This document shows, one piece after another, positions 1 through 10,900 of a stretch of 64,000 nucleotides of DNA (positions within the stretch are counted from its first letter, which is position 1; every line of letters begins with the position of its first letter). Source of the stretch: Noviherbaspirillum cavernae (GTDB taxonomy: Bacteria; Pseudomonadota; Gammaproteobacteria; Burkholderiales; Burkholderiaceae_D); NCBI RefSeq assembly GCF_003590875.1, contig NZ_QYUN01000002.1, positions 2,418,001 through 2,482,000 on the forward strand, read 5' to 3'. A program made the position numbers and the translations under genes. The notes beneath the pieces were generated by a model. The model was not told where the DNA came from. It searched no databases and saw only the letters and a list, made by a program, of their open reading frames with translations.

Positions 1-2
1 CG

Positions 3-1961
3 CTGAAGGCGAACTTCGGCCACTTCAATATCGCGGCGGGCATCATCGGCCTGATCAAGGCGGCCCTGATACTGAAGCACAAGAAGATTCCTGCGACCCT
101 TCATGTGAAAGAGGTCAATCCGAACCTTGGGCTCGAACAATCGCGCTTCTATGTGACCGGCCGCAGCACGGAGCTCGATACCTCGAGACCGCAGATCGTG
201 GCCGTCAGCGCGTTCGGCATGGGCGGCACCAACAGCCATGTGATCCTGCAGAACCATGAAGACCGGAGGGAGGTGTCGTCGCCGTCGGAAGAGTCGTACA
301 GGATCTTCACGCTCTCCGCGAAATCGGAAGGTGCGCTGAACCGGCTGGCGGGAGATCATCAGGCGTATTTCTCCTCTGATCCTTTCGCTTCCTTTGCCGA
401 TGCCGCCCATACGGCGTATTTCTGCCGGCCCTTGCTGCCCAACCGGCTTGCGTTCGTCGCTAGGAGTCACAAGGAGGCGCTGTCGCGCTTGAAGTCCGGC
501 CAATACAACCGCCGCCTGAGCAAGGATTCCAGGCTGATGGCCTTCGTCTTCTCCGGCCAGGGCACGCAGAACGTCGACATGGGTTCGACGCTCGCCGGCG
601 AATCGCCGCAATTCAAGCAGCAGCTGGATCGCGTGCTGGCGGTCTTCAAGGTCGAACACGGACTCGATCTGTCGGCCTATCTTTGGAACCGGGATAAAGA
701 GCAGGATATTTCGTCGACGCTCATCACGCAGCCTCTCCTGTTCGCCGTTGAGTTCGCACTTGCCCGCACGCTGCTCGATATCGGGGTCGCGCCCAACTAC
801 GTGTTCGGCCACAGCCTCGGCGAACTGATCGCCGCCGCCGTCTCCGGCGTGTTCGATCTGCAGACCGCGGCCGCGGTGGTGATGAAGCGAGCGCAGTCCA
901 TGGTGCGCTGCGAACCTGGCGCCATGCTCGCCGCCGAAAGCCTCGACGGCTTGGAGGAGCTGCTGCAGGAGCGCGCCGTCTCGGTGGCCGCGCACAATTC
1001 GCCGAAGCAGTTCGTGGTGTCCGGCGGCTTCGAGCAGATCGATGCGGCGGCCGACATATTCAAATCGCGCGGTTTCGGGCATCAACGGCTCAAGACCTCG
1101 CATGCCTTCCACTCCCACATGATGCGCCAGGCAGCAGCCGAATTCCTGGAGTTCATGAAGGGCGTGCCGTTCAACGACGCGCGCATTCCGATCGTCTCCA
1201 ACATTACCGGCCGCATCCTGACGGAATACGAATACAAGAACCCGATCTATTGGTCGGACCACCTGCTGAGATCGGTCCAGTTTGCGAAATCCGTGCAAAC
1301 CCTGCATGAGCTGGGCGTCAGGAATTTCATCGAGATCGGCCATGGGTATGCCATGAGCAACCTGGTTCAAGCCAATCTCGCCACACGGCCGAACGGTGAA
1401 AGCAAGGTGGTGCAGGCGCTCGGCGGCGTGGACGAGGAGTACTCCTCCTTCCTGAATACGATCGCCGCCTACTGGACGATGTCGGACCGCGTGGCTCTCG
1501 ATCCCTTCGTCGTCGGCCGACGCAGGGCGGCTCTGCCGGCCTATCCCTTCGATCGCACGCGGCATTGGATAGAACCGGTCATCGGGTTCGGCAAGCGCGG
1601 CGCACGCATGGTCGAGACTCCCGCGTCGTGCCAGCAGATGGAGGCCGCGGCGAGCACGCCAGGCGCAAGCCAGGGTCCGACCCACCCCGCCCCGCAGCCG
1701 GTCGAACACGTCCAGGACAATCCGGTCGAATCGGTGGTGGCCGACATCTATGCGACCTATCTCGGCAGCGCCGACATCGACAGGCAGACTGCCTTCTTCG
1801 ATCTCGGCGGAAACTCCCTGATCGCCATCCAGCTGATCAACAAGCTGCGTGAAACCTTTCAGCTGGATATCCCGATGCGCGGCTTCTACGAGAACAGCTC
1901 GATTGCCGACATTTCTCTGCAGATCGCCAACAAGCTGCTGGAGGGCGCCAAGCATGGCTGA
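3..1961 (+). CDS. Type I polyketide synthase, C-terminal part (KS end, AT, ACP); runs off the left edge
   Basis: The reading frame is open from base 3, so the gene begins outside the window. The visible protein starts in the last third of a ketosynthase domain (NFGHFNIAAG with the catalytic His, then GTNSHVIL). An acyltransferase follows: GQGTQ, active-site GHSLGE near 819-836, and HAFHS near 1100, a motif that in this family goes with malonyl-CoA rather than methylmalonyl-CoA. It ends in an acyl carrier protein with the phosphopantetheine serine in DLGGNSL near 1801-1818. No ketoreductase, dehydratase or thioesterase domain lies between AT and ACP, so the product of this module should stay a beta-keto thioester unless a partner acts in trans. 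The stop overlaps the next gene by 8 bases, so the whole left block is probably one operon. Confidence 0.93.
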   Translation: MKANFGHFNIAAGIIGLIKAALILKHKKIPATLHVKEVNPNLGLEQSRFYVTGRSTELDTSRPQIVAVSAFGMGGTNSHVILQNHEDRREVSSPSEESYRIFTLSAKSEGALNRLAGDHQAYFSSDPFASFADAAHTAYFCRPLLPNRLAFVARSHKEALSRLKSGQYNRRLSKDSRLMAFVFSGQGTQNVDMGSTLAGESPQFKQQLDRVLAVFKVEHGLDLSAYLWNRDKEQDISSTLITQPLLFAVEFALARTLLDIGVAPNYVFGHSLGELIAAAVSGVFDLQTAAAVVMKRAQSMVRCEPGAMLAAESLDGLEELLQERAVSVAAHNSPKQFVVSGGFEQIDAAADIFKSRGFGHQRLKTSHAFHSHMMRQAAAEFLEFMKGVPFNDARIPIVSNITGRILTEYEYKNPIYWSDHLLRSVQFAKSVQTLHELGVRNFIEIGHGYAMSNLVQANLATRPNGESKVVQALGGVDEEYSSFLNTIAAYWTMSDRVALDPFVVGRRRAALPAYPFDRTRHWIEPVIGFGKRGARMVETPASCQQMEAAASTPGASQGPTHPAPQPVEHVQDNPVESVVADIYATYLGSADIDRQTAFFDLGGNSLIAIQLINKLRETFQLDIPMRGFYENSSIADISLQIANKLLEGAKHG

Positions 1962-3108
1962 CGCCAGTGTCCTCACGAAGAGCCAGCTGTCCTTCCTGAA
2001 TGCCAAGCTGCAGGGCCTCAAAACAGGTGAAGCACCCAAGACGCCGGTGCAGACCAGACGTGCCACCATCCCCGAATTGGGCGTCATCTTCTTTTCCGGC
2101 GTCGCCAATGGATGCGCGCCTTACGACCTGCTGTTGGACGTTGCGAAATTTGCCGATGCTCAAGGCTTCAAGGCGATCTGGACGCCCGAGCGGCATTTCA
2201 CCGAAGTCGGCGGCGCCTATCCGAATCCCGCGACGCTGGCGGCCGCCTTGGCCACCGTCACCCGCAATGTCAGGCTGCGTGCGGGCAGCATCAATCTGCC
2301 GCTGCACGATCCGATACGGGTGGCCGAAGAATGGTCGGTGGTGGACAACCTGTCAAACGGCCGCGTCGATCTCGCGGTCGCCCCGGGATGGCATGTGCGC
2401 GACTTCGTGCTCAAGCCCGAAAATTTCGCCGGCAAGTTCGACATTCTCAATGAGTATCGCGACCAATTGCGGCGCATGTGGCAAGGCGAGCCGATCGAGA
2501 AGACGGATGCCAACGGCGATATCCAGGCGATCGTCACCTATCCCCGGCCCGTGCAAAAGACCTTGCCGTTGTGGCTCACGACCTCGCAAAAAGAGGACGC
2601 ATGGCGTTTTGCCGGGGAAAACAACTTCAACGTCTTGTCGGCCTTGATCAATTTCGGGCCGAAGGATCTCGAGAAGCGCATCCGGATCTATCGGGAGGCG
2701 AGAGCGTCGGCCGGCTTGAATCCGGAATCCGGTGTCGTGTCGCTGATGCTGCATACCTATGTCGACGAAGATCCGCGGCGCGCCGTGGAACGGGTGAGGC
2801 CGGCGTTGACGGATTACCTGAAGTCCTTCGTCACTCAGCATCAGACCGCGAACACCTCGGCCGACGACAAGGTGAAGACCCTGAATTCCCTAGGCGAAGA
2901 CAGCGACGATTTTGTCGACATGGTGTTCACCCGCTACGTCAAGACCAGCTCATTGATCGGCGACGCGGAACAGGCGGAGTCGGTCCTCGCGAATTTCAAG
3001 GCCATGGGCGTCGATGAAGTCGCCTGCCTGGTCGATTTCGGATTGAAGAAGGAAGAAGTCCTGGGCAGCCTGCGCCTGCTGTCGGGACTCATGCGGAGCC
3101 AACGATGA
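1954..3108 (+). CDS. Luciferase-like FMN-dependent monooxygenase, MupA/Atu3671 type
   Basis: 384-residue protein; the ATG at 1954 overlaps the PKS stop, which argues for translational coupling. The fold is that of the bacterial-luciferase group: WTPERHF near residues 67-73, a long NLPLHDPIRVAEEW segment, NGRVDLAVAPGW, and a C-terminal helical part. Members of this natural-product subfamily are usually encoded next to, or fused into, PKS/NRPS assembly lines and need reduced FMN. They are thought to oxygenate a carrier-bound intermediate. Here it follows directly on a PKS ACP, and a flavin reductase gene at 6542 could supply the reduced flavin. The exact reaction cannot be read from sequence. 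It is a stand-alone protein here, not a fused domain. Confidence 0.88.
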   Translation: MADASVLTKSQLSFLNAKLQGLKTGEAPKTPVQTRRATIPELGVIFFSGVANGCAPYDLLLDVAKFADAQGFKAIWTPERHFTEVGGAYPNPATLAAALATVTRNVRLRAGSINLPLHDPIRVAEEWSVVDNLSNGRVDLAVAPGWHVRDFVLKPENFAGKFDILNEYRDQLRRMWQGEPIEKTDANGDIQAIVTYPRPVQKTLPLWLTTSQKEDAWRFAGENNFNVLSALINFGPKDLEKRIRIYREARASAGLNPESGVVSLMLHTYVDEDPRRAVERVRPALTDYLKSFVTQHQTANTSADDKVKTLNSLGEDSDDFVDMVFTRYVKTSSLIGDAEQAESVLANFKAMGVDEVACLVDFGLKKEEVLGSLRLLSGLMRSQR

Positions 3109-3635
3109 AAACCTATGCATTCAAGGGCATCGCCCCGCAAATCCACCCGAGCGCCTATGTCTTCGACGATGCGATCATCATCGGCGACGTTCTCATCGAA
3201 AAGAACGTGAGTATCTGGCCCGGCGTCACCATCCGGGGCGACAAGGAAAAGATCGTCATCAGGGAAGGGGCCAATATCCAGGAGCACTCGGTGCTCCATG
3301 CCGACCCCGGCTACCCGCTGGTGATCGAAAGAAACGCGACGATCGGCCACGGCGTGGTGCTGCACGGCTGCACGGTAGGCGCGCATACCGTCGTGGGCAT
3401 CGGCGCCATACTCCTGAACGGCGCGCAAGTCGGCGACGACTGCATGATCACCGCCGGCTCCATGCTCAGCTCAGGGCCGCGGTTCCCGTCCGGCAGCCTG
3501 CTCTCCGGCAGTCCGGCCAAGGTGCTCATGAGCTTGAGCGAAAGCGATATCCGGAACCTGCGGGATACCGCGATCGAATACCAGGACCTGGCGGCGGAGT
3601 ACCGGGAAAACCTGACGCCCACGCAGCCGCGATAG
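3105..3635 (+). CDS. Gamma-carbonic-anhydrase-like hexapeptide-repeat protein
   Basis: 176 residues, start overlapping the previous stop (ATGA). The protein is a left-handed beta-helix of hexapeptide repeats, with the family pattern IWPGVTIRGDKEKI near residue 36, NIQEHSVLH near 58 and IGHGVVLHGC near 79. The spaced histidines (EHSVLH, GHGVVLHG) are in the places where family members bind a metal. Relatives include YrdA, CaiE and PaaY; PaaY acts as a thioesterase in phenylacetate metabolism. In a PKS operon a thioesterase or acyl-handling role is as plausible as CO2 hydration, which is inference. The C-terminus ends in a helix (residues about 145-170), as is usual for this family. Confidence 0.85.
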   Translation: MKTYAFKGIAPQIHPSAYVFDDAIIIGDVLIEKNVSIWPGVTIRGDKEKIVIREGANIQEHSVLHADPGYPLVIERNATIGHGVVLHGCTVGAHTVVGIGAILLNGAQVGDDCMITAGSMLSSGPRFPSGSLLSGSPAKVLMSLSESDIRNLRDTAIEYQDLAAEYRENLTPTQPR

Positions 3636-3644
3636 GGTGGCGCG

Positions 3645-4403
3645 ATGTTCCGCGATACCCGGCTTCTTCGATTGCATGCATCGCCGCAGCCCGACCTACT
3701 GGTGTGCTTCCCGCATGCTGGCACGGGAGCGTCCGCCTTCCGGCCATGGACCGCGAAATTGAAGCTATCGGCGAGCGTCGCATTGGTGCAATTGCCGGGA
3801 CGCGAAGACCGGATGCACGAGGCCTTTTCCCAGACCCTGGCCGAAGTGTCCGTTCAGATCGCAGACGAATTGGCCGCCGTGCGCGCCGGAACGCTGTTCC
3901 TCTTCGGGCACAGCATGGGCGCGTCCATCGCATGGGCCGTCGCGGCACAGCTTTGGCGGCGGCATGGTCTCCGTCCGATCGTGATTCTTTCGGCGCAATC
4001 GCCAGATGTGCCGTTGCGGGACTTGGGTCGGCGGCCGGGCGATTTGCGCGAGTGGTTTGCATTGTTGGGCGAGGATTTTCCGAAGGCGCTGGAGAACCCG
4101 GAATTGCTGGAGATTTTCCAGAGGACGCTTTCCGCGGACTGCGCATGGATGGAGAGGGAGCTTGCCGAACCGCCCGCTGGTCGTCTCCCGATCGATCTGC
4201 ATTGCGTCTATGCCACACAAGACGGTTTGGCCACCAGGGAGGCGGTCGCCCGCTGGCGTGATCATACCAGCGCGTCATTCAGCATTACGCCGATGCGCGG
4301 CGGGCACATGTATTTTCTGAAGGAGTCGGAAGAACTTCTGGCTTTCGTTCATCACTTGATCGAGGTTTGCAAACACGATGCTGATTCAACCTGCATTGGA
4401 TAA
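3645..4403 (+). CDS. Type II (editing) thioesterase, GrsT/RifR family
   Basis: 252-residue alpha/beta hydrolase. It has LLVCFPHAGTGASAF at residues 19-33 (oxyanion region), the nucleophile elbow GHSMGAS near residues 88-94 and a late His in GGHMYF near residue 221, in the usual type II thioesterase arrangement. Such enzymes remove aberrant acyl groups from carrier proteins in PKS and NRPS lines. The ATG at 3645 is 9 bases after the previous stop with a GGTGG-like sequence in front. Its 3' end overlaps the next gene by 26 bases. A releasing rather than editing role cannot be excluded, because no integral TE domain is visible in the PKS part inside the window. Confidence 0.9.
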   Translation: MFRDTRLLRLHASPQPDLLVCFPHAGTGASAFRPWTAKLKLSASVALVQLPGREDRMHEAFSQTLAEVSVQIADELAAVRAGTLFLFGHSMGASIAWAVAAQLWRRHGLRPIVILSAQSPDVPLRDLGRRPGDLREWFALLGEDFPKALENPELLEIFQRTLSADCAWMERELAEPPAGRLPIDLHCVYATQDGLATREAVARWRDHTSASFSITPMRGGHMYFLKESEELLAFVHHLIEVCKHDADSTCIG

Positions 4404-5208
4404 GTTGAAGGAACGCGGTGCGCTCCATGTCGGATTCCAGCGGTACACGCCGCCGTTTTCCTATTCCGTCGACGAGACATTCGACCCCGTCGGCTATTCG
4501 GTTGATCTGTGCCGGCATGTCGTCGCCGCGATCGGCCGGCAATGCGGGCGCGACGAAGTGGAGATCGTTCCCGTCGAGGTCACCTCGTCGAATCGGCTGG
4601 CCTTCCTGGAGCAGGGCCTGATCGACATGGAATGCGGTTCCACGACGAATACCGTGGAGCGGCAACGGTATTCGCTGTTCAGCCGCTCGATCTTCTACAC
4701 TGCGCATCGGATCCTGTTGAAGGACTCGGCCGCGGATACGGACGGACGTCGCGCATTGACGATCACCGGCATCCAGGATTCCACGAGCCACCGCTCCTTG
4801 ATGGAATGTGAGCATCCCGATCCGGACCAACGTTTCGATTTCACGGGATGCCCCAGCATTTTTTCCGCATTCGAACGCTTCCGCGACGATCCGCAGGTCG
4901 ACGCCATCATCGCGGACGAAGTGATATTGAAATCCCTGCTGCTGCGTTCGCAGGCCGCAGGCGTGCGTTTCTTCCCCGACGGGCTGGGCGGTGAACCCTA
5001 CGGCTTCATGATCCGCATGGGAGAGGATGCGTTCAAGGCCGCGGTCGACGATCAATTGGCCTGTCTCTTCCGATCGGATGGCTTCGCATCCTTGTATGCG
5101 AAATGGTTCATGCAGCCGCTGCCCGACCTCGGATTCGATCTGAGCATGCCGATGTCCTCGGCCATGCGCGAAGTGGTCCGGTCGTCCGATGACCAGGTCC
5201 GGTTATGA
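4378..5208 (+). CDS. GltI-like solute-binding-protein fold without signal peptide
   Basis: 276 residues, type 3 (amino-acid) ABC substrate-binding fold. The middle carries ECGSTTNTVERQRYSLFS, the signature of glutamate/aspartate-binding proteins such as GltI, and the C-terminal part (PYGFMIRM ... YAKWFMQPLP ... LGFDLSMPMSSAM) follows GltI along its length. The protein starts directly with the mature-type N-terminus (MLIQPALDKLKERGALHVGF): there is no signal peptide, lipobox or membrane segment, and the start lies inside the thioesterase gene. No permease or ATPase genes accompany it. Family knowledge: this fold has been recruited to enzymes (cyclohexadienyl dehydratase) and to sensors. A cytoplasmic ligand-binding or catalytic role on an acidic amino acid or a derivative is inference. 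Confidence 0.85.
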   Translation: MLIQPALDKLKERGALHVGFQRYTPPFSYSVDETFDPVGYSVDLCRHVVAAIGRQCGRDEVEIVPVEVTSSNRLAFLEQGLIDMECGSTTNTVERQRYSLFSRSIFYTAHRILLKDSAADTDGRRALTITGIQDSTSHRSLMECEHPDPDQRFDFTGCPSIFSAFERFRDDPQVDAIIADEVILKSLLLRSQAAGVRFFPDGLGGEPYGFMIRMGEDAFKAAVDDQLACLFRSDGFASLYAKWFMQPLPDLGFDLSMPMSSAMREVVRSSDDQVRL

Positions 5209-5259
5209 TCGTGGTTCGCAAGCTCAAATTTGTTTATTGAAAAGGTGAGGGTGTTGCAT

Positions 5260-6558
5260 ATGAAGATAGGCGTATTGGGATTCGGCAACGTGGCCGCGGC
5301 GACGGTACAAAGATTCGTGTTCAACCGGGATCTGATCGCGTCGAAGCTCGAGACCGAGATCGAAATCGCCAAGGTGGCGACGCGAACCGTGAGCCGCGCG
5401 TCGGGCCTGGTGCCGCAAGCTTGCGTGCTGACGGACGATTGCTGGTCCGTGGTCGATGATCCCGAGATCGACGTCGTGATCGAACTGATCGGCGGCGTCG
5501 AGCTGGCCAAGGAGCTGGTGCTGCGCGCGATCGCCAACGGCAAGCACGTCATCACGGCGAACAAAGCCTTGCTTGCGACCAGCGGCGAGAAGATATTGCA
5601 GCTGGCGGACCAGAAGGGCGTATGCGTGCTGTTCGAAGGGGCGGTCGCCGTGTCGATCCCGATCATCAAGACGCTCAAGGAATCTGCCGCCGCCAATCGC
5701 GTCAGCTCCATCGTCGGCATCCTGAACGGCACCTCGAATTACATCCTGTCGCAGATGAGCGAACAGGGCGCCGACTTCGGCGACGCGCTGGCCCAGGCCC
5801 AGCAGAAGGGATATGCAGAAGCCGATCCCGCCCTCGACGTGAACGGCGAGGATGCGGCGCACAAGATCACGATCCTCGCCTCCCTGGCGTTCGGGGTTCC
5901 GGTCGATTTCGACATGGTGCGGTTCAAGGGGATCACCGAGATCGAGCGCGCCGATATCCAGGCCGCCAAGCGGCTGGGCTATGAATTGAAGCTCATCGCC
6001 CAGGCCCAGCTCAGGAACGACAAGGTCTCCATCTCGGTCGCGCCCACGCTGGTGCCGAACCATTCCATGCTGGCCCACGTGCGAGGTTCGATGAACGGCA
6101 TTTCGCTGGCCGGCGATCTGTTCGGTCCGGCATTCTTCTACGGTTCGGGCGCGGGCGGCGTGCAAACCGCCAGCGCCATTCTCGCCGACCTGATCGATCT
6201 TGCCCAGAGCACTCGGGACGGCAAGTATGTTGGCGCGCCCAACATGGGCTTCAAGAAAAGCGCTATGGCAGGAAAGGAATACCTGTCGTCCGACGAGTGC
6301 AGCAGCCAATTCTATTTGCGCCTCAAGGTCGAGGACAAGGTGGGCGTCCTCGCGGAAGTCAGCGCGATTTTCGCGAAGGCCGACGTATCTGTCAGCACGC
6401 TGCTGCAGGACGAAAGCCGGGAAGGCATGACTGACCTGATCGCGACGACGCATGCCATTTCGACGTCCAAGCTGCAGAGCATCCTGCCCCTCTTGCAGGA
6501 TGCAGCGGGCGGCCATCCCGTGGTGACCTATCCGGTGCTGGATGAACGTGCCGACTGA
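5260..6558 (+). CDS. hom: Homoserine dehydrogenase with C-terminal ACT domain
   Basis: 432 residues. Oxidoreductase that interconverts aspartate-4-semialdehyde and homoserine using NAD(P)H. Visible: Rossmann GFGNVAAATVQ at residues 7-17, ITANKALLA near 102, and the family block EADPALDVNGEDAAHK near 187-202, which contains the catalytic and substrate-binding Asp/Lys residues. An ACT-like regulatory region occupies residues about 350-425. The ATG at 5260 is preceded by AAGGTGAGGG at a good distance; a TTG 30 bases upstream is less likely. It sits between cluster genes and overlaps the next one by 17 bases, so it is probably a pathway-dedicated paralogue feeding homoserine or a derivative to the product. 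A housekeeping role is possible but would be an odd location. Confidence 0.9.
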   Translation: MKIGVLGFGNVAAATVQRFVFNRDLIASKLETEIEIAKVATRTVSRASGLVPQACVLTDDCWSVVDDPEIDVVIELIGGVELAKELVLRAIANGKHVITANKALLATSGEKILQLADQKGVCVLFEGAVAVSIPIIKTLKESAAANRVSSIVGILNGTSNYILSQMSEQGADFGDALAQAQQKGYAEADPALDVNGEDAAHKITILASLAFGVPVDFDMVRFKGITEIERADIQAAKRLGYELKLIAQAQLRNDKVSISVAPTLVPNHSMLAHVRGSMNGISLAGDLFGPAFFYGSGAGGVQTASAILADLIDLAQSTRDGKYVGAPNMGFKKSAMAGKEYLSSDECSSQFYLRLKVEDKVGVLAEVSAIFAKADVSVSTLLQDESREGMTDLIATTHAISTSKLQSILPLLQDAAGGHPVVTYPVLDERAD

Positions 6559-7273
6559 AGCCATGCATGTCGTCGACAAGGTGGCTTGCCGGATCTCCAG
6601 CGTGGAAGCGTTGTCCGCGGATATCCTGGGCATCAAGCTGGCATTGGCCGACGAAGGCTTCCTGCATCGTTCCGGGCAGTACCTCGACCTGGTGCTACCC
6701 GACGGATCGAAGCGCAGTTTTTCCATCGTCAACCGTCCGGATCGCGAGGGTACGGTCGAGTTGCATGTCAGGCAGCCGCCGGGCGGGGGCTTCATCCGCG
6801 AGGTGCTCGATACGCGGCAACGCGGCGGAGAGCTGGCGATCGAAGGTCCGTTCGGCGAATTCCATTTCCGCGACCGGCCGCAGGATCGTCATGTCCCCGT
6901 GATTTTCCTCGCTTCCGGAACCGGCTTCAGTCCGTTCAAGGCCATGATCGAGGACCTGGTCGCGGCACGCAATCGGCGACCCGTGCATCTGTATTGGGGC
7001 GGGCGCATCAAGGACGATTTCTACCTGCACGATTGGGTGACGCGGCAAGCGGAGGCGATGCCAGCATTGGCCTATGTGCCGGTGTTGAGCGAGGCGAAGG
7101 CCGGCGATGCTTGGACCGGACGCACGGGCTTCGTTCACCACGCCGTGATCGTCGATTTTCCCGATTTGCGCGATTTCCACGTGTATACCTGCGGCGCGCC
7201 GGTGGTCGTCGAATCGGCTCGGCGCGATTTCGTCACACGGTGCGGCTTGCCCGAGGACAGTTTCTTCAACTGA
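6542..7273 (+). CDS. FAD/NAD(P)-binding oxidoreductase, probable flavin reductase (Fre/LuxG-like)
   Basis: 243 residues with only the ferredoxin-reductase core: an FAD-binding barrel with RSFSIVNRP near residues 58-66 and GGGFIREV near 81, then an NAD(P)-binding half with ASGTGFSPFKA near 124, HLYWGGR near 148 and YTCGAPVVVESA near 218. No iron-sulphur domain is attached, and the length matches Fre/LuxG-type flavin reductases or the reductase part of CDP-glucoseen reductase. It overlaps the homoserine dehydrogenase gene. The simplest reading is that it reduces FMN for the luciferase-like monooxygenase encoded at 1954; this is inference from co-occurrence. Confidence 0.82.
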   Translation: MNVPTEAMHVVDKVACRISSVEALSADILGIKLALADEGFLHRSGQYLDLVLPDGSKRSFSIVNRPDREGTVELHVRQPPGGGFIREVLDTRQRGGELAIEGPFGEFHFRDRPQDRHVPVIFLASGTGFSPFKAMIEDLVAARNRRPVHLYWGGRIKDDFYLHDWVTRQAEAMPALAYVPVLSEAKAGDAWTGRTGFVHHAVIVDFPDLRDFHVYTCGAPVVVESARRDFVTRCGLPEDSFFN

Positions 7274-7512
7274 ACACCTCCTTTGTGTATTCCTCCCGTA
7301 TGGACCGGCGGTCATGCCCAGGTCGAAAATATGCGGTCGTGACGACGATCTGGAATCCGAGGCTTGAACAGACTCAGCCCGTGGAGCGATGCCCTATCGA
7401 GTTGTGCGGTCACACAGCCGTACATCTTGAGGGAAAGTGCATGCAAGACGCATTCGGCCATCCATAGGATCTGATCGCTTCAAGGTGTTGTTCTGCATCG
7501 ACAAAGACTGAA

Positions 7513-8319
7513 ATGTTAGACCACGCTCACCCTGCCGCCTGTAGGCGCGGTATTGACATATGGTTGACCTATTACCAAGACATTGTTGACACGCGATTGC
7601 TCTCGAATCTGCGAGAGCTGCTTAGCGATGCCGAGCGCGAGCGGGAGAAACACTTTTGTTTTGCTGATGACCGCCTGTGCTACCTCGTGACGCGGGCAAT
7701 GGTGCGGACGGTACTGTCACGCTATGCGCCAATCTCTCCTGTGAACTGGATATTCTCGGCAAATACCTACGGCCGCCCCGAGGTCGCGAATTGTGACATT
7801 GATGCAACGGACTTGTGCTTCAATATTTCGCATGCCCGTGGCCTGATCGCACTGGCAGTTTCACGGCGTTGCGCCTTGGGGATCGATGTCGAAAATCTCC
7901 AGACACGCCAAGCTTCAATTGACCTCGCAGAGCGGCACTTTTCGCCGGTAGAAATCGCCGATCTGGCCACCGTCCCAGCCGAACAGCGTCAGGATCGCTT
8001 TTTCGAATACTGGACGTTCAAGGAATCCTATATCAAGGCGCGCGGCATGGGGCTGTCGCTTCCTCTAGACCGGTTCAGCTTCCACTATCCGCGTGAGTGC
8101 ACTGTGCAGATTACCATCGATCAGAAATTGGGTGACGATGGTAATCGCTGGAGCTTCTGGCAATTCCGGCCGACCCAAGAGCACTTGCTCGCCGTTTGCG
8201 CAGAACGTTTGGATAATGAAGCGCCAGTCCTGAGCATACGAAAGATCGTACCGACAGTCGCGGATGAGGTGGTCGAAATACCGTTACTGAGGTCGTCGGA
8301 AATGCGTTCTGAACATTGA
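7513..8319 (+). CDS. 4'-phosphopantetheinyl transferase (Sfp/EntD superfamily)
   Basis: 268 residues. Transfers phosphopantetheine from CoA to the conserved serine of carrier proteins, which the PKS ACP in this cluster needs. Visible: NISHARGLIAL near residues 103-113, the magnesium-binding GIDVE near 123-127, and the FFEYWTFKESYIKARGMG block near 161-178, all typical of Sfp-type enzymes. It is separated from the preceding operon by 239 bases with no recognisable gene. Its base composition is visibly less GC-rich than that of the cluster proper, so it may have joined separately. Regulation is not evident. Confidence 0.92.
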   Translation: MLDHAHPAACRRGIDIWLTYYQDIVDTRLLSNLRELLSDAEREREKHFCFADDRLCYLVTRAMVRTVLSRYAPISPVNWIFSANTYGRPEVANCDIDATDLCFNISHARGLIALAVSRRCALGIDVENLQTRQASIDLAERHFSPVEIADLATVPAEQRQDRFFEYWTFKESYIKARGMGLSLPLDRFSFHYPRECTVQITIDQKLGDDGNRWSFWQFRPTQEHLLAVCAERLDNEAPVLSIRKIVPTVADEVVEIPLLRSSEMRSEH

Positions 8320-8552: not shown

Positions 8553-8819
8553 ATGAATATGAGCATTTTCGGGTCTATTGAAGGGTGGGATTGCGGGCAG
8601 AGTGGTAATTACTGGGGGCAGTATGCGATGGATTGCTTACCCGAAGAGATCAAGAAAGCGTGCTACGGCAAATTAGCGTTTGTCAGCATGACCGAGTCTG
8701 ACGGGCGACGGCTCACTCAAAAATTCTGCGCTGGGCGCGACGTAATTGTGGTATCAGAACGCATTGTTCCTCAAGGCTACGCGAGCGAGGCTGACCTAGA
8801 GCGATTTTCAAATCAATGA
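8553..8819 (+). CDS. Small hypothetical protein, 3' end fused to IS630 sequence
   Basis: 88 residues, not recognised. A GGGGGA purine run stands immediately before the ATG at 8553; a second in-frame ATG at 8559 has better spacing from it. The sequence is Gly/Trp/Tyr-rich at the start (GSIEGWDCGQSGNYWGQYAM) with no signal peptide or membrane helix. The last codon and stop lie inside the probable left end of the IS630 element (from about 8814), so the natural C-terminus may have been lost. Low GC relative to the flanks fits recently acquired DNA. Confidence 0.45.
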   Translation: MNMSIFGSIEGWDCGQSGNYWGQYAMDCLPEEIKKACYGKLAFVSMTESDGRRLTQKFCAGRDVIVVSERIVPQGYASEADLERFSNQ

Positions 8820-9767
8820 ATGGAATAACCGCAGTGGGCGAACCAGCCGCTGGCATCGCTGTTGCTGATTCTGCCGATCACTTTGGTGAGCGCCTGATCA
8901 AGCGCCTCACGTGTCCGGGCCTTCATGCCGCGCAAGCGGGTTTTGATTTTGGACCAGCAAGGCTCGATCGGTGACCAGTCGGGAGAGTACGGCGGCAGGT
9001 AAATCAGTTGCGCGCCGGCGCCAGCAATCATGGCTTCAATGTCCGGGACCTTGTGGACGCTCAGGTTATCCATCACCACCACGTCACCTGAGCGCAGCGT
9101 CGGCACCAGAGCATGGGCAACACAAGCCCGGAATACCGCCGCATCGACCGCGCCTTCGACCGTCATGACGGCCTCCATGCCATGGCAGGAAAGCGAACCG
9201 GGAATGCTGACATTGCGCCCGAAGTTTCCCGGTACCGCGTCATGCACCCGCTGGCCGTGCATCGCCCGTCCATAACGACGCGTCATGGCAATGTTCAGGC
9301 CGGACTCGTCGATGAATTTCAGCCTTTTGACAGGACAGGATGCGATCTGCTTGCGGTAGCGACGACGTGCCAGACGTACGCGCGCCATGTCCCGTTCTGT
9401 GGCATGTACGGTCTTTTTTTCGGCGCAGGCCCATCCGATGCAGAACCCGGCACATGGTGGGTTCACTGACGGCAATGCCGGTACCGGCCTGCAATCGTCC
9501 GATCAACTCTTTCAAAGTCAGATCGGACTGTTCCAGCAGCCACTGCCGCAATTGCTCTCGGCAAGCCTCATCAAGCAGTACGCGTCGTCCGGATTTATGC
9601 CGCTGTCGAACCAGCTCGCCGCCACTGCGGCGATAGTGGCTCAACAGCGCTTCGACAAAGGACAGGCTGACATTGAAAAACCCGGCCACTTCGCGTTGCG
9701 ATTGTGTTCCTCGTTCGCACGCCTGCACGATTTTCCGCCGCAAATCCTCAGAATAGGGAGCCGCCAT
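8813..9767 (-). CDS. IS630-family transposase, two overlapping frames
   Basis: The first frame (ATG at 9767) gives an N-terminal helix-turn-helix part (MAAPYSEDLRRKIVQAC ... SGRRVLL). The second frame gives the DDE catalytic part: FIDESG, VVMDNLSVHK and SPDWSPIEPCWSKIK supply the Asp-Asp-Glu triad. The frames join at a run of seven A on the coding strand (T7 at 9414-9420). With six A the reading would be one continuous protein. Frameshifting by slippage is known in this family, but a one-base mutation or sequencing error would look the same. The stop is at 8813-8815. Confidence 0.85.
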
Positions 9768-9855
9768 GATTGCACCTTCGGCATTGCATATATGCCCATG
9801 GGACCCGCCCCCCTTACACATGCCGTGTTCAATTACCATGCGGTGATCTTCATTG
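8814..9855 (-). mobile_element. IS630-family insertion sequence (ends approximate)
   Basis: About 1.04 kb holding one frameshifted transposase gene. The ends are tentative: an imperfect inverted motif CAATGAA...ACCGCA is found at 8814-8833 and, reversed, at 9839-9855 (TGCGGTGATCTTCATTG). No TA target duplication, expected for this family, is visible next to these motifs, so the true ends may lie a few bases to tens of bases outside. Confidence 0.6.
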
Positions 9856-9988: not shown

Positions 9989-10900
9989 GAGCCTATCCCG
10001 GTAGGCCGTCGGCAAGGGAAATTGCGAGGTAAATGGTGGTCCAAGCGCATGTTGGCGAAGGAGGTTCGACATGGGCATGGTCAAGCAGGACGACGGCTGG
10101 CGTTTGCCAGACAGACTCTGGGCGCAAATGGAGCCGCTTTTACCGCCACGCAAGCCACATCCGCTGGGCTGCCATAACCCGCGTGTCTGCGACCGGGCAG
10201 CCATGGATGCGATCTTGTTCGTGTTGCGTACCGGTTGCCAGTGGAATGCATTGAACGGTACCGGCATTTGTTCCAGCAGTTCGGCGCATCGGCGCTTTCA
10301 GGAATGGGTTGATGCCGGCGTGTTCGAGGAGTTCTGGATGCATGGGCTGTTGTCGGCAGCGGCGTTGCGGGAAATCGACTGGTCCTGGCTGTCACTCGAC
10401 GGCGCGATGACCAAGGCTCCTCTGGGTGGGGAAAAAAATCGGCCCCAATCCAACGGATCGCGGCAAAGGCGGCGTCAAGCGCAGCCTGCTGACGGACGCA
10501 CACGGCATTCCCCTGGCCATCGTCATTGATGGTGCGAACCGCCATGACATGAAGCTGGCGCGACCGACACTGGAGTCGCTGGAAGTGGGGCGACCGTCAT
10601 TGCTTGCGGTGTGGCCACAAGGACTGTGCCTGGACAAGGGCTATGACTATCCGCAGATCCAGCAGTTGGCGCTTGAATTGGGCTACCGGGCGCACATCCG
10701 GTCACGCGGGGAGGAAGCGCAGCAGCGGCAGACGGGAACGAGAGCCCGCCGCTGGGTGGTGGAGCGTACGCATAGCTGGCTGAACCGGTTTCGTGGCTTG
10801 CTGATTCGTTGGGCCAAGAAGGCGAAGAACCATCTCGCGTTCCTTCATCTCGCCTGCGGCATTATCACCTGGCGAAGCATAGGCCTACTGGGATAGGCTC
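9989..10900 (+). mobile_element. IS5-family (IS427-like) insertion sequence with terminal repeats
   Basis: 912 bp bounded by 18-bp inverted repeats with one mismatch: GAGCCTATCCCGGTAGGC at 9989-10006 and its near-complement at 10883-10900. The bases TAA flank both ends (9986-9988 and 10901-10903), consistent with a short target duplication at a CTAA/TAAG-type site, as expected for this family. The right end is only 16 bp from the CCA end of the tRNA-Val gene. Confidence 0.9.
10071..10896 (+). CDS. IS5-family transposase in two frames joined at an A7 run
   Basis: Frame one starts at 10071 (MGMVKQDDGWRLPDRLW) and carries the N-terminal domain and the first catalytic Asp (WLSLDGA). Frame two carries GPNPTDRGKGG, VIDGANRHDMKL (second Asp region) and RRWVVERTHSWLNRFR (catalytic Glu region). 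The junction is a run of seven A at 10432-10438; deleting one A gives a continuous reading ...GGEKIGPNPTDRG. Two-frame organisation with slippage is common in this IS group, so the element may still be active. Confidence 0.88.

Follow-up and report, generated by a model that had tools for sequence, protein, structure and literature searches.

5-Hydroxy-4-oxo-L-norvaline (HON, also called RI-331) has long been known as an amino acid active against fungi and mycobacteria. Its target is homoserine dehydrogenase (HSD), an enzyme that animals lack; labelling work is said to have derived it from aspartate and acetate. In the excerpts of two reports (PMC4302243, PMC9293202), it is a mechanism-based (suicide) inhibitor of HSD, the second describing an enzyme-bound adduct in which C4 of the NAD+ nicotinamide is bonded to C5 of HON. 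For hydroxylation on a carrier protein, the described model is MupA of the mupirocin pathway which, in the excerpt of PMC10952193, acts on the α-carbon of a β-ketothioester bound to an acyl carrier protein (ACP), not on the β-hydroxy form, and requires an FMN reductase (Fre was used) and the matching ACP. Here we analyse a gene cluster at the left edge of a 64-kb stretch of the Noviherbaspirillum cavernae genome (G000:C2:2418001-2482000; the window), which joins a nonribosomal peptide synthetase (NRPS) and a polyketide synthase (PKS) to a MupA-type oxygenase, a second HSD and a signal-less solute-binding protein (SBP). The cluster is real and conserved, though rare, and horizontally moving, and on balance we favour the reading that it was acquired horizontally and makes HON or a very close hydroxymethyl-ketone amino acid.

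Conservation of the cluster across two phyla

The preliminary description of this DNA listed a PKS, an oxygenase, a γ-carbonic anhydrase (γ-CA)-like protein, an amino-acid-binding protein, an HSD and a phosphopantetheinyl transferase (PPTase). Profile matches recover all of them on the + strand, and the sixth gene after the PKS, absent from the earlier title, encodes a Fre/LuxG-type flavin reductase. The window edge truncates the cluster: the leftward extension that had been called for contains the rest of the PKS, an exporter gene and a gene for an adenylation–peptidyl carrier protein (A-PCP) didomain, the latter two lying entirely outside the window.

We compared six loci, namely the window, L018 (Rathayibacter iranicus) and L103, L104, L105 and L106 (Streptomyces), L106 being the same Streptomyces sp. 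KL109B locus as L006. A profile scan of genome contigs with the SBP alignment confirmed 582 loci, of which the best 80 were retained, and further carriers may have been missed; tblastn on those 80 gave the cluster in two, L006 and L018. Searching with the luciferase-like monooxygenase (LLM) gave it in at least four of 392 Streptomyces genomes, KL109B among them, a count that is possibly a lower bound as four candidates were scored per genome, and in one of 199 genomes of the Rathayibacter family (R. iranicus).

The core gene order is kept across the six loci and two phyla. A-PCP, PKS, LLM, γ-CA, thioesterase (TE, where there is one) and SBP follow one another in all five other loci, at identities to the window of 43–45% (A-PCP), 51–53% (PKS), 59–66% (LLM), 55–58% (γ-CA), 38–40% (TE) and 40–48% (SBP). 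An HSD gene is present in all six, at the opposite end of the gene set in Rathayibacter. A lack of conservation with the PKS, in other genomes, of the genes after the TE had been set beforehand as a refuting result; instead, SBP, γ-CA and HSD recur beside the PKS in five of five. Every locus also has an exporter gene, of LysE type in the window, L018 and L105 and of EamA type in L103, L104 and L106, the L103 protein matching carboxylate/amino acid/amine transporters below the cut-off. No PPTase gene was found in the five other loci.

In wider protein lists (own genome left out), SBP and HSD relatives apparently share seven contigs, SBP and A-PCP ten, and HSD and A-PCP five; sharing was judged from matching contig sizes and is an indication only. 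In four more stretches of relatives that contain an LLM (L132-L135), and in a short locus (L087), the SBP, HSD, γ-CA and TE of the cluster are lacking (E 1e-8).

An invariant adenylation code and a malonyl-type module

Active-site motifs of the PKS ketosynthase (KS), acyltransferase (AT) and ACP are intact in all six loci. The AT motifs GHSLGE and HAFH, likewise present in all, are consistent (as motifs only) with malonyl specificity and agree with the malonyl-specific module described before.

The ten code positions of the adenylation (A) domain, read in GrsA numbering and placed by eye using LgrA alignments, spell DVRHFALLAK in six of six loci, though the A-PCP proteins are only 43–45% identical. 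The string is identical in 66 of 67 clade proteins, the remaining one differing in the last letter. Because the code is the same in the six loci and in these 66, one substrate and one product class are likely for the family. The string is also found outside the clade (P0308-P0360), in 34 of 53 A domains, many of them with condensation or TE domains and from other phyla. A domains that tether aspartate through its side-chain carboxyl do exist, according to the excerpt of PMC13126170.

Oxygenase, reductases and a γ-CA-like protein

The LLM scores 402.1 bits against TIGR04020 (cut-off 244.45), bearing out the earlier MupA/Atu3671-type assignment; it is present in all six loci and its closest solved relative is PuwE (PDB 6ket). 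The four Streptomyces loci carry an HpaC/HsaB-type flavin reductase between SBP and HSD (L103:13002-13499 and equivalents, 70–75% mutual identity). A flavin reductase of one of two families is found in five of the six loci, and the Fre type of the window and the HpaC/HsaB type of Streptomyces are apparently two unrelated families filling one role.

Against the NCBIfam γ-CA model NF050158, the γ-CA-like protein reaches 168.6 bits, below the cut-off of 250. RGD, Q[ED]H and H....H (three His positions) are kept in all six loci, and solved relatives include γ-CAs. Our guess is that it serves as a metal-dependent hydrolase or as a helper in CO2 loss.

A second homoserine dehydrogenase recruited from several lineages

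The window HSD scores 218.6 bits against Pfam Homoserine_dh (cut-off 22.9) and has the NGT[ST]N and GYAE..DP...K motifs. That it might be the ordinary housekeeping gene is ruled out by a further HSD in the same genome (G000:C2:2180934), 45% identical to the cluster copy. Carriers have at least two HSDs in six of six cases (two in five genomes, three in Rathayibacter); non-carriers have one in 19 of 20, with none at the cut-off in the last (G102). The third Rathayibacter HSD (L097; genome G101, contig 1) is shorter, at 328 residues, and groups with the cluster HSD of that genome.

A tree built on 32 HSDs requires three changes for the six cluster copies, as many as its starred branches enforce, and 0% of 200 bootstrap trees unite the copies in one group. 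The window copy is placed towards the proteobacteria, the Streptomyces copies make up a separate clade of four and the Rathayibacter copy lies inside its own family; by this tree, cluster HSDs appear to come from at least three lineages. Because the core genes are orthologous, the HSDs differ in lineage and the Rathayibacter copy stands at the other end, the cluster HSD is probably a self-resistance copy of the target and not a shared pathway enzyme. The preliminary description had proposed a new aspartate-family-linked polyketide: its direction was right, with the correction that the HSD is probably not a pathway enzyme.

Among the matches listed, the window HSD groups with about 84 proteins (48–83% identity for full-length ones), ordinary HSDs standing at about 47%; these need not all belong to such clusters. 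Named members of this set (P0121-P0204) occur in Burkholderia, Trinickia, Marinobacterium and Rhodococcoides. The clade has GxGxxA for GxGxxG in 79 of 79 readable proteins (84 rows), against one of 33 readable (36 rows) outside it, possibly altering NAD(P) binding. We gave GxGxxA little weight: it belongs to one clade, perhaps to one event, and does not occur in the Streptomyces or Rathayibacter cluster copies.

A binding protein with a changed side-chain pocket

Searching with the SBP gave 515 proteins, of which the best 120 are listed; the first 39 form the clade (43–68% identity, query included) and the other 81 stand at 28–39%. Clade members have 0–11 residues before query residue 7, against a median of 29 in the others, and no hydrophobic run. 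The missing signal peptide, already noticed for the window protein in the earlier account, is a clade-wide feature.

Relative to 2ia4 and 2vha, the clade retains R75, S90, T92, R97 and D182, apart from two rows with Ser in place of T92. R24 and H164 (2ia4 numbering), which we take to be the residues binding the acidic side chain, are changed: position 24 reads Gln in all 37 readable clade rows (two gaps) and Arg in 81 of 81 others, and position 164 is Ile in 39 of 39 clade rows and His in 78 of 81 others. Because these two are changed and the backbone-binding positions kept, the pocket would suit a ligand that has an amino-acid backbone but lacks an acidic side chain (HON and homoserine are examples), and the SBP may hold the product; it may act in sequestration, delivery or catalysis. 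At E 1e-15, the genomes of Streptomyces KL109B and Rathayibacter contain no match besides the SBP itself, and that of the window encodes two more relatives at other sites, 31–33% identical. A periplasmic import operon was rejected, there being no permease and no signal peptide.

Proposed pathway and alternatives

We propose that the A domain uses aspartate, whose β-carboxyl it most likely activates, and loads its own PCP, after which KS-AT-ACP would condense the loaded aspartate once with malonate. The LLM, given FMNH2 by the flavin reductase, would then hydroxylate the α-carbon of the β-ketoacyl-ACP, as is known for MupA; the acid would be released by the TE, or perhaps by the γ-CA-like protein, and lose CO2 to give HOOC-CH(NH2)-CH2-CO-CH2OH. 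The RhtB-like exporter would expel the product, the duplicated and separately recruited HSD would sustain threonine and methionine synthesis with the housekeeping HSD poisoned, and the cytoplasmic SBP, with its changed pocket, would bind the product or an intermediate. Aspartate plus malonate, α-hydroxylation, hydrolysis and CO2 loss lead to a hydroxymethyl ketone, and to HON if the β-carboxyl is the one activated. The C5 of HON, the site of the NAD+ adduct, is the carbon that the LLM would hydroxylate. The gene set had earlier seemed to match no nameable pathway; it suggests HON/RI-331, a known HSD inhibitor, and we lean towards a cluster of the antimetabolite type with a duplicated target, most likely yielding an amino-acid antibiotic against HSD, either HON or something closely analogous.

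Several points weigh against this proposal. The product is predicted from genes, and HON is reported from Streptomyces akiyoshiensis, a genome outside the compared set. The best of seven families matched by the exporter left of the window is RhtB homoserine efflux (NF007812), at 180.2 bits and under the cut-off of 209. Neither reductase type was found in L018. In L104, the TE, which is present in four of the five other loci with its Ser/His motifs kept, was not detected, and the γ-CA and SBP genes overlap (L104:10907-12230). The TE may be dispensable, and because it is missing there, release by the γ-CA-like protein is worth considering. The window HSD is a long branch (1.87), and the tree program warns that such joins may be false; of 116 columns conserved in 25 housekeeping HSDs, 41 are changed in one or more cluster lineages and, by eye, show no clear clustering in the GYAEADP loop or active site. 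The A-domain code recurs, among the matches listed, in 34 of 53 distant A domains and is therefore neither unique to nor defining for this pathway; it appears to mark a widespread, uncharacterised specificity. Arg239 and His278 of the code are reminiscent of A domains activating side-chain carboxyls, for which we found no confirming paper, and the open-licence papers searched on A-domain code strings and Arg239 held nothing explaining the code.

A minor possibility is that the A domain takes another amino acid, or aspartate through its α-carboxyl (giving 3-amino-5-hydroxy-4-oxopentanoate), the product being a new hydroxymethyl-ketone amino acid against HSD or another aspartate-family enzyme. 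D235, which we take to be the usual contact of the α-amine, is kept, many A domains outside the cluster have the same code, and the substrate is read here from sequence. Beta-activation is nevertheless the best fit to a duplicated HSD and to HON as a known inhibitor of it, and the R/H pair would be unusual for α-activation. It is improbable, in our view, that the HSD is a tailoring enzyme, reducing the 4-oxo group of an intermediate, with 4,5-dihydroxynorvaline or a comparable amino alcohol as the exported product. The proposed ketone does resemble the HSD substrate (as a homologue of aspartate semialdehyde), and the enzyme is found in all six loci with NGT[ST]N kept; but HSDs of at least three lineages beside orthologous core genes would be odd for a shared step and expected for resistance, and the position of the Rathayibacter copy at the other end of the cluster points the same way. 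We think it very unlikely that the cluster supplies a larger product, built elsewhere, with its starter or a side-chain unit, the HSD only raising homoserine/threonine precursor supply. Extra copies of primary-metabolism genes are known in biosynthetic clusters, but no further large synthetase is common to the Streptomyces and Rathayibacter sets (open reading frame (ORF) lists, 20 kb each; flanks without family search), and a line of one module that comes with an exporter and a release enzyme seems complete in itself.

Layout of the locus and its mobile flanks

Feature coordinates are collected in Table 1, in which position 1 is the start of the window and negative values lie to the left of its edge. 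The complete PKS, read from the sequence left of the window, is a 996-residue KS-AT-ACP protein starting at -1029. By ORF coordinates, PKS and LLM overlap by 8 nt, LLM and γ-CA by 4 nt, TE and SBP by 26 nt and HSD and reductase by 17 nt; from the PKS through the flavin reductase, neighbours overlap or are at most 51 bases apart, and the PPTase follows 239 bases further on.

Table 1 Coordinates of the cluster genes and the bracketing insertion sequence copies
Feature	Position	Strand	Remark
Left IS630-like copy	-5138..-4122 (L003)	same orientation as right copy	transposase in two frames
RhtB/LysE-like exporter, 209 aa	-3583..-2954 (L003:16417-17046)		left of window
A-PCP didomain, 623 aa, without condensation domain	-2932..-1061 (L003:17068-18939)		left of window
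PKS end (KS C-terminus, malonyl-type AT, ACP)	1..1961 (ORF 3-1961)	+	cut by window edge
MupA/Atu3671-type FMNH2-dependent LLM	1954..3108, ATG at 1954	+	TIGR04020; proposed α-hydroxylase of β-ketoacyl-ACP
γ-CA/PaaY-like hexapeptide protein	3105..3635	+	profile matches
Type II TE	3645..4403	+	Ser/His motifs kept
GltI-like amino-acid-binding protein (SBP_bac_3), cytoplasmic	4378..5208	+	changed side-chain pocket
Second HSD, ACT domain	5260..6558	+	proposed self-resistance copy of target
Fre/LuxG-type flavin reductase	6542..7273	+	proposed FMNH2 supply for LLM
Sfp-type PPTase	7513..8319	+	proposed activator of two carrier domains
Right IS630-like copy	8793..9808	-	transposase in two frames

The two IS630-like insertion sequence (IS) copies are 99.8% identical over 1017 bases and bracket the cluster in direct orientation, resembling a composite transposon. 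An 88-residue ORF (8553-8819) lies between the PPTase and the right copy, and an IS5-like transposase in two overlapping frames (10071-10896, named by eye) follows the cluster immediately on its right side. The stretch from minE to the left copy (L003:11400-14500) contains phage-like remnants, integrase-like ORFs in two frames and a helicase-like ORF, all named by eye; beyond these, leftward, come minE (by eye) and then minD.

The minD–dnaQ site is variable: relatives' spacing is about 5 kb in G003, a one-contig genome of the same genus, against about 21 kb here, and about 24, 34 and 67 kb in G002, G005 and G010. Neither the 14 other same-genus genomes, where the best other match is 43% identical, nor the remaining members of a class-wide sample of 369 genomes gave an LLM match at E 1e-100 or better. 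The cluster seems to be a recent acquisition. A scan of L003:9000-20000 gave no tRNA at the island edge, and plasmids hold no close LLM copy (43 records with an LLM relative, all below 60% identity).

Comparison with known systems

Among the titles and abstract starts listed by our searches of an open-licence library, there is no HON gene cluster, no description of the present cluster and nothing joining HSD with self-resistance terms; subscription journals and MIBiG lie outside that search, and earlier publication is possible. More tentatively than we propose its product, we suggest that no earlier locus may be known for an amino acid that poisons HSD, be it HON or an analogue not yet described, and that the cluster may have an unusual two-part immunity, consisting of a replaceable, repeatedly recruited second HSD and an SBP of periplasmic type that was relocated to the cytoplasm and re-tuned (R24Q, H164I) to hold the product or pass it to the exporter. 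A compact cluster in Streptomyces and proteobacteria makes the biosynthesis, resistance and natural range of HON directly testable. If the proposal is true, it would show how a one-module NRPS–PKS line makes a small antimetabolite, and it would offer a solute-binding protein that has come to serve in the cytoplasm, in a pathway or in immunity.

With HON/RI-331 of S. akiyoshiensis, the locus shares a predicted chemistry that yields HON, a duplicated gene that is the HON target and related clusters in Streptomyces; it differs in its proteobacterial host and in that its product is deduced from genes. PuwE, presumably of cyanobacterial lipopeptide lines, was compared by LLM sequence only, as the closest solved relative. 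The likeness to MupA lies in a TIGR04020 oxygenase, a partner reductase and a proposed ACP-bound β-ketoacyl substrate (PMC10952193); unlike the mupirocin system, the present line has one cis-AT module acting on an aminoacyl starter and no KS0 bimodule, and MupA's own cluster, in the excerpt of that paper, is without a reductase. The SBP shares its fold family and the R75, S90, T92, R97 and D182 positions with the GltI/DEBP glutamate/aspartate-binding protein (2ia4, 2vha), from which it is set apart by the absence of a signal peptide, the R24-to-Gln and H164-to-Ile changes in readable clade rows and its place in a biosynthetic operon. We know of no described case of target-duplication self-resistance involving HSD; the cluster resembles that class in that all carriers duplicate a primary-metabolism enzyme, the extra copies coming from several lineages.

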